A DNA stretch of 64,000 nucleotides from Candidatus Gastranaerophilales bacterium. GTDB lineage: Bacteria > Cyanobacteriota > Vampirovibrionia > Gastranaerophilales > Gastranaerophilaceae. Positions 60,825-64,000 of the stretch are shown here, piece by piece (the first letter of the stretch is position 1; each line of letters starts with the position of its first letter). The translations under genes were made by a program, and so were the position numbers. The notes under the pieces are model-generated. The model was not told the DNA's origin, ran no database searches, and saw only the letters and a list, made by a program, of their open reading frames with translations. The stretch is taken from the NCBI GenBank assembly GCA_944325655.1, contig CALVAW010000003.1, positions 1 to 64,000 of the forward strand. The letters are read 5' to 3'.

Positions 60825-61340
60825 TTAATAATGTTTAGTTTTTGTTGCATGATCTACATCTGCATTTTTCAAATTTGCATTTATTTTACCTTGGATTGTT
60901 CTAAATGCTAAAACACCCAATGCAGCAACAGTAGCAAGCACAGCCGTTACTTTATTATCTTTTAAATAATTTTTATAAAACTTCTTCGGAAGTGATGCGA
61001 CATTGCTTAAATTTTTAATCGGCGCTTCAGTCAATAAACCGGGTATTGATTTTAATGTTGCTCCAACAACAGCACCTATATCTTTAACCACCCCCCATAA
61101 AGTTTTAAAAATGTTAGATTTTGCAGATTTTATATTCTTTCCTATAAGTCCGACTAATCCGGCTGCAAATATACCTTCTACGACACCTCTTGATACTCCT
61201 TGAACAGTATTTGTCGTTGTATTAAAAACCTTAATAGCGTCAGTAAATCTGGTCTTCAAAGAAGGTTTTGAATTTTCCGAATTAACATTCGTATTAGCTT
61301 TAAAAGATAAACCTGAATTATATTTTAATGGTTGAATCAT
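60825..61340 (-). CDS. Small membrane protein of the AAA+ cluster
   Basis: This 171-residue protein is not recognised. It begins MIQPLKYNSGLSFKANTN. Two hydrophobic, Gly/Ala/Val-rich segments lie at about 48-68 (GVVEGIFAAGLVGLIG) and 130-148 (TAVLATVAALGVLAF), separated by a basic, helical middle part. AAAGGA lies about 12 bases before the ATG. It is the last minus-strand gene after the AAA+ genes (gap 127 bases), so it may be independently expressed. Its FKAN beginning is similar to the FKGK start of the AAA+ protein upstream. Confidence 0.75.
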   Translation of the reverse strand: MIQPLKYNSGLSFKANTNVNSENSKPSLKTRFTDAIKVFNTTTNTVQGVSRGVVEGIFAAGLVGLIGKNIKSAKSNIFKTLWGVVKDIGAVVGATLKSIPGLLTEAPIKNLSNVASLPKKFYKNYLKDNKVTAVLATVAALGVLAFRTIQGKINANLKNADVDHATKTKHY

Positions 61341-61467: not shown

Positions 61468-62574
61468 TTATCCTAAACCCAATTTCGCTTTTTCTTCTTC
61501 AAACTTGCTTATTAAAGCAGGAGTCAACAAAGGAGAAACTCTTCCTCTCTTTATTTCAGCTATATATTCAGACTCTTCGGGATATTGATACCTTAACAAA
61601 GTTAAATCCAATATATCTATTATGTCTTTGTTAGAATATAAAGATTTATTTTTAAAAAGTTCTTCCAAAATATTTTCTGTAGCAACTATAAATTTATTTT
61701 TCTTGGCAAGATAATCTTCTATTATTTTTTTGGCATCTTCGACACTGGCGGCAGGAACCGGAATTTTATCCGGAATAATATCATTCGACAAAATACTTTG
61801 ATCTATATCAAGGGGATAATTTGTTGTTAAAAACAAAGTACACTTATAATCCTTTGCACAAGTTTTTATAAAACTCCTTAATTGCTCTAATATCGGGGAC
61901 GACTCATAAGAAATAGTATCGAACTCATCAATTAAAATTATTGTTCTTTTTTTATCTTCGCTTAACTCATAATTTTTCTTGGCAGCTTGCGCTTTATTAA
62001 GAACTTCTTGCATTATTTCTTCAGGCTGTTTTGAACCGGCAGAAATAATTTCTATATTGCATAATGACTGTTCTGCAAGCGCAAGCGCAAATGTTGTTTT
62101 ACCGCACCCCGTAGGTCCAAAAAATAAAAAAGCGTTAGGAATTTCAATATTTTCGGACATTTTTTCCCTCAACATTGTTTTTAAAATGAAGCTATCTTCC
62201 AGTTGTTTTTTTATATCTTCATAACCGCTTATTCTGTTAAAACCTTTATTATTTTTTGCAAGATTTTTTACACCGTCAAAATAAGCTTCTGCAGCATCAA
62301 ATTTCTGAGCTTGGTTATTTTTTTGAAAACCTTCCAATCTGTTTTTTGCTTCTCTAATCTGAGTCATATATCTGAAAAAATTTTGACAAGTATCTTTTAC
62401 TGATTGCTCCTGTCTTGCAATGTCATCCTCAGACATTTTACTTATTCTATCTGCAGCATCATACAAAGTTTGTTTCTCTTGTTTTAATTCTTCCGCTGTT
62501 TTTCCTTTAAATCCGGTTCGAAAAAGTTTTAAAAAAGTATTATTTTGAAATTTATACAATGGCGCTATTTTCAT
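61468..62574 (-). CDS. AAA+ ATPase with intact Walker motifs
   Basis: The 368-residue protein has a helical N-terminal part (about 25-110, charged and probably coiled) and one AAA+ domain of the FtsH/Vps4 class: Walker A GPTGCGKT (153-160), IEIISAGS, Walker B IILIDEFD (212-219) and sensor 1 LFLTTN (Asn252). The usual arginine fingers before the small domain are missing: the region reads SNDIIPDKIPVPAAS. There is no protease domain or signal peptide. Two upstream genes encode relatives with destroyed ATPase motifs. The cluster may form a mixed AAA+ ring; substrate is unknown. Confidence 0.88.
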   Translation of the reverse strand: MKIAPLYKFQNNTFLKLFRTGFKGKTAEELKQEKQTLYDAADRISKMSEDDIARQEQSVKDTCQNFFRYMTQIREAKNRLEGFQKNNQAQKFDAAEAYFDGVKNLAKNNKGFNRISGYEDIKKQLEDSFILKTMLREKMSENIEIPNAFLFFGPTGCGKTTFALALAEQSLCNIEIISAGSKQPEEIMQEVLNKAQAAKKNYELSEDKKRTIILIDEFDTISYESSPILEQLRSFIKTCAKDYKCTLFLTTNYPLDIDQSILSNDIIPDKIPVPAASVEDAKKIIEDYLAKKNKFIVATENILEELFKNKSLYSNKDIIDILDLTLLRYQYPEESEYIAEIKRGRVSPLLTPALISKFEEEKAKLGLG

Positions 62575-62585
62575 TATTTAAAACC

Positions 62586-63431
62586 CTACACACATGCTTC
62601 AATATGTCTTATTATATTTTCGACTTTATAATTAAAACTGATTTGACTGTTTTTAATTCCCCATTTTTCAAAATTCTCAGTCAAAATAGTATCTGAAGTA
62701 ACAAAAGTAATTTTTTTATCCTTAATATATTTAAAAAATTCTACAAAGAAATTTTTTATTTCTTCACTGTTTCTTGAATCACATCCAAGACCATTCCTGC
62801 CTTTTTGAAACATACACACAAAAGCGCGCCCGGAAGGATTAAACTTCTTTTTAAATTTCTGAATTTGTCTTACAAAATCATTAAAATTACCATCATAAGA
62901 CACATTTACAACATTTATACCGGAATCTCTTAAATATGCGTCTATGAAACAAGCAAGAGAATTGCTTTCCATCTTTTTAAAAATCATTAGTTTCGGAATT
63001 TCAAATGCTTGGGGAGAATTTTCAATTTTATCTGACAAAAGAATATATTGCAAAACTTGCAAAGATTTATAATTCTCTTTGCTTCCTCCGACAAATTTGC
63101 CTATATTTAAACTTATTGGAGAATTTTTAACAAAATTTTCAATTTTAGCCTTAAATTCCGGATTTTCATCCAGTAATTTTAAATATCTCTCGTATAATTC
63201 ATTTGTCTCAGCTTTGCAAGCTTGGTTATTTTTATATTTTATAAAACTGCCTATTGCAACTGCCGCCAATGCAAACAAAGCACCTACTTTTAAAAACTTT
63301 TGCAATTTGTAATTTTTATTTTTTGTATCAACAGCACCTTCAGCAGAAGTTTTTGAAGTGAAATTGCAAAATCTTTCCGGTGTCATTTTCCTATATTTTG
63401 GTATGTCAGTTTGAATACTCTTTATGTTCAT
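62586..63431 (-). CDS. Membrane-anchored degenerate AAA+ paralogue
   Basis: The 281-residue protein has one membrane segment (about 46-65, KVGALFALAAVAIGSFI). Residues about 140-280 follow the AAA+ protein downstream strand by strand: IPKLMIFKKMESNSLACFID in place of IPNAFLFFGPTGCGKTTFAL, INVVNVSYDG in place of IEIISAGS, RAFVCMFQKG in place of RTIILIDEFD, and KKITFVTSD in place of KCTLFLTTN. Walker A and B are thus lost while the fold is apparently kept. This is my reading of aligned segments, not a computed alignment. It is 11 bases upstream of the ATPase gene. Confidence 0.72.
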   Translation of the reverse strand: MNIKSIQTDIPKYRKMTPERFCNFTSKTSAEGAVDTKNKNYKLQKFLKVGALFALAAVAIGSFIKYKNNQACKAETNELYERYLKLLDENPEFKAKIENFVKNSPISLNIGKFVGGSKENYKSLQVLQYILLSDKIENSPQAFEIPKLMIFKKMESNSLACFIDAYLRDSGINVVNVSYDGNFNDFVRQIQKFKKKFNPSGRAFVCMFQKGRNGLGCDSRNSEEIKNFFVEFFKYIKDKKITFVTSDTILTENFEKWGIKNSQISFNYKVENIIRHIEACV

Positions 63432-63434
63432 AAA

Positions 63435-64000
63435 TTAATAGTCCATAAATAAATCCTCAAAAGTAATTTTTTCCTTTTGCGGCGTCGGCTCTGTGGGTTC
63501 ATAATATAATTTATATTCGTTATTTAACACAATAAATACATCTTCGTAATCGCTGTCTGCCTTTAACTCAGGGCAATACATCTGAGCTCTTACGCAATAA
63601 TCCTGCAAATAATACTTACAATCTTCATAATATTTATATTCTTCAATCAATTTTTCCAATTCTTTTACTTCTTCGGGCGAAATAGAATTGTAATCTAACC
63701 TTGCTTTTATACCAAAACGCTGTCCGCTAATCGACGATGGCTCGAATTCTTCAACTTCTTTATCCGTTTTAATCAAAAGAGTAACATGATGCTTTGAAGC
63801 ATTTTCAACCAAATTTTTAAATTGACTGATTAAAATTCGATTTTCTCTTGAATTATATTGAGTTAATAAAGAATCAAATTTAGATATATCAATTATAGTC
63901 CTTTTACCTGTTATAGACCAATATGATTCCGCTTCCTGTATTGCTGAAGACAATTGCTCCATTGCATTTCTATAATTATTTCCTGCGAAAGAAATTTGTT
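63435..64000 (-). CDS. Second degenerate AAA+ paralogue (5' end beyond the window)
   Basis: The frame is open to the window edge, so the gene is partial; the ATG at 63962 is internal. The visible part starts QISFAGNNYRNAMEQLSSAI, which corresponds to IISAGSKQPEEIMQEVLNKA of the intact ATPase, and continues KRTIIDISKFDSLL against KRTIILIDEFDTIS, so Walker B has lost its paired acidic residues (D-I-S-K). HVTLLIKTDKEVEEF takes the place of sensor 1. The C-terminus (about 80 residues) is acidic with several Tyr and Cys. Walker A would lie beyond position 64000 and cannot be judged. Confidence 0.7.
   Translation of the reverse strand, partial: QISFAGNNYRNAMEQLSSAIQEAESYWSITGKRTIIDISKFDSLLTQYNSRENRILISQFKNLVENASKHHVTLLIKTDKEVEEFEPSSISGQRFGIKARLDYNSISPEEVKELEKLIEEYKYYEDCKYYLQDYCVRAQMYCPELKADSDYEDVFIVLNNEYKLYYEPTEPTPQKEKITFEDLFMDY

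Follow-up and report, generated by a model that had tools for sequence, protein, structure and literature searches.

At the end of the window, i.e. the whole stretch of 64,000 nucleotides that was analysed from a Candidatus Gastranaerophilales bacterium, a member of a group related to cyanobacteria, three genes lie on the minus strand. They are co-directional and tightly packed, with gaps of 3 and 11 bp, and were named ATP (61468-62574), TM (62586-63431) and BIG (63435 to contig position 65177). The features of the locus are the following:

60825 to 61340, minus strand: neighbour gene of 171 aa, hydrophobic product with an FKA motif at its N-terminus, syntenic flank of the trio
61468 to 62574, minus strand: ATP gene, 368 aa, AAA+ ATPase (Pfam AAA, E 5e-15)
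61750 to 61827, minus strand: sensor 1 and SRH of ATP, residues 250-275, finger position without conserved basic residue
61924 to 61941, minus strand: Walker B of ATP, IILIDE, residues 212-217, read from the translation
62095 to 62118, minus strand: Walker A of ATP, GPTGCGKT, residues 153-160, read from the translation
62586 to 63431, minus strand: TM gene, 281 aa, membrane-anchored, P-loop-less, AAA+-like product
62622 to 63011, minus strand: degenerate AAA+ core of TM, residues about 141-270, from fold and profile comparison
63240 to 63296, minus strand: predicted membrane anchor of TM, residues about 46-64, FLKVGALFALAAVAIGSFI, read from the sequence
63435 to 64000, minus strand: part of the BIG gene inside the window, P-loop-less AAA+ core with arginine finger, cut by the window end
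63717 to 63719, minus strand: Arg487 codon of BIG, SGQ[R]FGIK, arginine-finger position of the SRH
63879 to 63893, minus strand: degenerate Walker B of BIG, IDISK, residues 429-433

Continuation of the contig to position 65177 gave the full BIG of 580 aa, with the N-terminus MKIYPVSIFATPRKY; the ATG at 63962 is internal to BIG and not its start. The trio is flanked on one side by a hydrogenase/complex-I-like gene. On the other side lies either a small gene with a hydrophobic product or two membrane-protein genes, which by reading look like LrgA/LrgB. The 171-aa neighbour was not counted as part of the system because it is present in 25 of the 28 genomes of the genus. In G021 the hydrogenase-like flanking gene is split into two frames (L035, G021:C41:20648-22620).

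According to the original prediction, Walker A, Walker B and sensor 1 are kept by the product of 61468-62574 alone, and direct reading bore this out. ATP displays GPTGCGKTT, IILIDEFD and LTTN at the three places, respectively, and carries an FKG motif near its N-terminus. As predicted, TM has KKMESNSL in place of Walker A, CMFQKG in place of Walker B and a hydrophobic stretch near residues 46-64, and BIG has IDISKFD for Walker B. The sequence past position 64000, which the prediction had proposed to read, revealed GKAAYAKDD at the Walker A place of BIG, where the motif is lost, and IKTD was found at its sensor 1. Both TM and BIG have thus lost Walker A, Walker B and sensor 1. One AAA+ catalytic feature is kept by BIG, namely the SRH arginine Arg487; BIG combines the loss of Walker A with a retained SRH arginine and an adjoining P-loop member, the three traits by which a P-loop-less, finger-bearing AAA+ family of Gastranaerophilales is defined here. 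TM has neither a P-loop nor a finger, and its C-terminus lies just past the core, without a lid.

The classical AAA core (PF00004) was detected in ATP with 56.5 bits against a gathering score of 21.2. The arginine finger of classical AAA proteins was not found in its SRH. No arginine is present in the SRH of ATP (LTTNYPLDIDQSILSNDIIPDKIPV), and no invariant basic residue occurs between N252 and K291 across four ATP orthologues, so that the predicted lack of arginine fingers in the intact copy was upheld. Among curated models, CdvC comes closest to ATP (E 8.7e-13), with 47.9 bits against the NCBIfam equivalog cut-off of 650. Clamp-loader models also scored below their cut-offs (holB, 26.0 vs 180.6; RFC large subunit, 38.5 vs 280).

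A direct Pfam scan for the AAA core gave a score for ATP alone and no match in BIG or TM, and neither of these two could be assigned to a specific family with Pfam, NCBIfam or PADLOC. Profile-profile comparison with hhalign related the BIG family to ATP (probability 98.1, E 9e-14) and TM to the BIG family (probability 94.7, E 5.6e-8). The direct comparison of TM with ATP (15.9, E 0.0016) was not significant on its own, and the tie of TM to the AAA+ family therefore runs via BIG. In the AlphaFold2 model of BIG, residues 360-490 form a confident core with a pLDDT of about 90-98; among solved structures, p97, Vps4 and Msp1 match BIG best (E 4e-5 to 2e-4). For TM, the mean pLDDT is 78 and that of the core about 90. 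Its top fold matches are mostly AAA+ proteins, including RFC, MgsA, FtsH and the T4 clamp loader, with E values only down to 1e-3 (best 1.3e-3, probability 0.97-1.0). The model of TM also shows a long helix over residues 40-88, and the orthologues are hydrophobic at the same place as the anchor. The two degenerate products are thus predicted to be AAA+-like, in line with the original prediction; from profile comparison and predicted folds, an AAA+ ancestry is strongly supported for BIG and moderately supported for TM.

The trio was found in the same order in G000, G014, G021 and G002, at 25-54% identity and with all ORFs intact. It is accordingly syntenic in three further species (G014, G021 and G002), which are all of the relatives with a close ATPase orthologue at the locus; the original prediction had singled out absence from such relatives as an argument against its reading of the trio. 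The close relative G004 has an empty site, where the two flanking genes lie about 290 bp apart. In G001, also among the closest relatives, the BIG and TM genes are intact and the ATPase gene is cleanly missing, so that the BIG/TM pair may act alone.

A two-gene version was identified in G040: one gene encodes a chain of 645 aa that carries a membrane stretch at its N-terminus and contains three dead cores, and the adjacent gene encodes a close relative of ATP. G153 and G096 encode a similar three-core chain, the N-terminal part of which aligns with TM (E about 1e-6 to 3e-7). All three genomes thus have a single chain that joins TM-like to BIG-like cores. In the chains at L080 2499-4436, L121 8114-10033 and L134 4401-6320, a TM-like anchor and core are followed by more dead cores, the last of which is BIG-like and bears the arginine. 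At the level of sequence, these fusions represent the best evidence that TM and BIG would belong to one assembly.

Many related operons exist in the order besides the trio, a point that the original prediction had missed. It belongs to a family of AAA+ operons of 2-5 genes, restricted in the sampled genomes to the order Gastranaerophilales. Matches to the BIG-type profile were obtained in 55 of 240 genomes of the class and 48 of 292 of the phylum, all inside this order. A P-loop member lies within 1.5 kb of 48 of the 60 P-loop-less cores, in 44 of these cases on the same strand, and the pairing of P-loop and P-loop-less genes is conserved across many genera. Operons with one P-loop gene and one to three dead genes were seen in L038, L040 and L128.

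Other architectures were also observed. In two genera, five AAA+-core genes follow one another in a single operon; three of them have a P-loop and two do not (L133:3189-10653, L135:4722-12052). Single proteins of ~1030-1070 aa contain three AAA+ cores, mostly with a P-loop (L043:9673-12879, L083:10335-13415, L084:6649-9729). A glycine-rich hydrophobic N-terminal domain is present on a P-loop core in two genomes and on a P-loop-less core in a third (L055:6820-8919, L037:10181-12319, L040:7959-9671).

The retention by BIG of the finger that ATP lacks is likewise new with respect to the original prediction. An arginine at the position of Arg487 was found in 30 of 32 aligned P-loop-less cores, with a mean identity of 16%; without the BIG orthologues, all 27 of the remaining 27 have it. 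In the same rows the Walker A Lys, the Walker B Asp/Glu and the sensor 1 Asn are all variable. Since the 32 rows had been chosen after the motif was seen, the search was repeated with a profile ending before the finger. Here, 43 of 45 P-loop-less cores (domain E<1e-20) showed the arginine, and about 13 of the cores were non-seeds. The two exceptions are the BIG proteins of G001 (R to S), where the ATPase gene is missing, and of G002 (R to N), where the ATPase has IIDDAE as Walker B, with Glu changed to Asp. Both fit a coupled loss, with two cases only.

The ATPase clade nearest to ATP is fingerless throughout (L003, L034, L035, L080, L120, L121, L054), and each of its members adjoins a P-loop-less partner bearing the arginine. 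A general absence of the finger from P-loop members was rejected, since 26 of the 66 in the wider family have an arginine at the finger column; complementarity between P-loop and finger is therefore strict only in the trio-type clade (support 94). After removal of near-copies, the arginine was carried by 42 of 60 P-loop-less and 14 of 54 P-loop cores (Fisher p 2.7e-6, a value which is too optimistic because the rows are related). On the tree the P-loop state changes about 10 times vs 42 expected under shuffling, which indicates that the P-loop was lost in a few old events, with a long period of co-inheritance thereafter. P-loop loss shows strong clustering on this tree, and an independent-pairs test of P-loop vs finger had no power (1 supported pair, p=1), so that the association may not be an independently repeated one. 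The GKS/GKT present in dead cores of L035 and L079 is out of register in the alignment and does not represent a P-loop.

We consider it somewhat probable that ATP, TM and BIG assemble into a hetero-oligomeric AAA+ machine tethered to the membrane, in which the ATPase site is completed in trans, following a clamp-loader-like logic. TM would hold the three-protein hetero-oligomer at the membrane and, having neither half-site, would serve as scaffold and tether. ATP would bind the nucleotide via its P-loop, with no arginine finger of its own to offer. BIG, predicted to be nucleotide-blind, would offer Arg487 to the ATP-bound site of the adjacent ATP subunit. Because ATP is fingerless and Arg487 would be supplied by BIG, hydrolysis is proposed to occur at the ATP/BIG interface only. 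The resulting motion of a mixed ring or spiral could then remodel some target at the membrane. The hetero-oligomer had already been proposed in the original prediction, and this part stands as a well-founded reading because TM-like and BIG-like cores are fused elsewhere, the folds are AAA+ and the trio is conserved; the physical complex itself is what we infer from them.

Bacterial AAA+ proteins are mostly homo-oligomers. Hetero-oligomeric AAA+ machines with inactive subunits are known in replication, peroxisomes and metal chelation. Clamp loaders (gamma/delta'/delta, T4 gp44/gp62, RFC) are hetero-oligomeric AAA+ assemblies with degenerate subunits, like the trio. In delta', a P-loop-deficient subunit can give its finger to the ATP site of a neighbour. 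T4 gp62 has a degenerated AAA+ module, and the subunit can act as a clasp (PMC8121543). The motor subunits of clamp loaders, however, have their own fingers, which the ATP protein lacks. Furthermore, no collar domain or clamp partner was found for the trio, one of its partners is membrane-anchored, and the similarity is generically AAA+.

The origin recognition complex (ORC), which had been put forward as an analogue, also mixes active and inactive AAA+ subunits with a finger in trans, as read for the trio. In ORC the finger goes from Orc4 to Orc1. The trio differs in being bacterial and in its membrane tether, and no Orc1/Cdc6-type winged helix or DNA-binding part was detected in ATP, TM or BIG with Pfam and NCBIfam. 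ORC is thus retained as one of several possible analogues, but the clamp loader is closer in logic.

Magnesium chelatase offers a bacterial pairing of active and inactive AAA+ subunits like that of the trio, from a different AAA+ clade. Its active AAA+ subunit (ChlI/BchI) needs an inactive AAA+ partner (ChlD/BchD); ChlD of Synechocystis keeps Walker A, Walker B and the Arg, and a finger mutant retains over half of the activity (PMC3789969). No Mg-chelatase model was among the matches listed for ATP, TM or BIG. CdvC/Vps4, CDC48 and FtsH are mostly homo-oligomers with their own finger, and the trio has no protease domain.

Alternatively, a complex might form in which BIG and TM, with their AAA-derived folds, serve as adaptors or substrate receptors, and in which Arg487 is kept for the fold or an interface and not for catalysis. 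Long extra regions are present in both proteins, G001 has retained the two in the absence of the ATPase, and K454, N365 and T466 of BIG are conserved as strongly as R487. The arginine stands, however, exactly at the finger column of the SRH, and BIG orthologues lose it only where the ATPase is absent or its Walker B Glu is altered; we regard this alternative as unlikely.

The trio could also be an accessory defence or conflict system with a hetero-oligomeric AAA+ core, in agreement with its patchy presence, the empty site of G004, the operon types differing between species and the Mu-like or other prophage genes that adjoin several related clusters (L037, L038, L178). The last point means little because Mu-like phages insert widely. 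In PADLOC, ATP was matched through its generic AAA domain only, TM had one marginal match and BIG none, and the system-specific partners of known anti-phage systems were not found. No nuclease or other effector domain was detected in the trio proteins, and the trio is flanked by ordinary chromosomal genes. A role in defence thus appears quite improbable.

AAA+ proteins are usually homo-oligomeric, and some P-loop members elsewhere in the family keep their own arginine. ATP might accordingly be a homo-oligomer with a non-standard trigger residue, BIG and TM being independent old duplicates that merely share the operon. Such an arrangement is difficult to reconcile with an SRH devoid of conserved basic residues in four orthologues, with the P-loop/P-loop-less pairing across genera or with the fusions, and we judge it very doubtful. 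That the system is decaying and its dead copies are being lost, as losses in G004 and (partially) G001 and the G002 substitutions at the catalytic Glu and finger Arg might suggest, is highly improbable, given intact ORFs at 25-54% identity and a finger that is invariant over deep divergence in the 27 other dead cores.

The hetero-oligomer with a site completed in trans may extend beyond the trio. A bolder proposal, which we hold only tentatively, is that Gastranaerophilales possess a lineage-specific family of AAA+ machines with an obligate split site, in which the trio-type ATPases would all be fingerless, the finger donors all ATP-blind and the assembly fixed at the membrane, with operons of 2-5 core genes and fusions as variants. 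Neither the ATPase nor the donor would then work alone, because the former would be permanently fingerless and the latter permanently ATP-blind. If this is true, a group-wide family which splits the halves of the ATPase site between genes would represent a natural experiment on the asymmetry of AAA+ rings and would make it possible to test the trans arginine finger cleanly with two proteins. For a largely uncultivated lineage, it would also open a first way into a conserved machine that has no name yet. No published description of the system was found in the literature library that was searched, and the data suggest a machine type which has been unrecognised so far and has diversified across the whole group.

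Proteins of these operons, and some non-homologous neighbours, repeatedly show a short FKG, FKA or FKS motif within about the N-terminal 70 residues. Among 157 AAA-family proteins, FKG was found in 31 at residues 11-70 vs 2 at residues 101-160. The motif might be a targeting or processing signal.

A viral origin of the system was considered and rejected: IMG/VR contained no relative of BIG, and the phage matches were generic clamp loaders only. A lone ATP-like match on a contig bearing phage genes adjoins host-like genes. By reading, Mu-like or other prophage genes lie beside or inside related AAA+ clusters at L037:12339-15077, L038:3871-4902 and L178. The prophage genes near these clusters include transposase, virion morphogenesis, integrase and reverse transcriptase genes, and one cluster gene of L037 is joined without interruption to a transposase-like reading frame.
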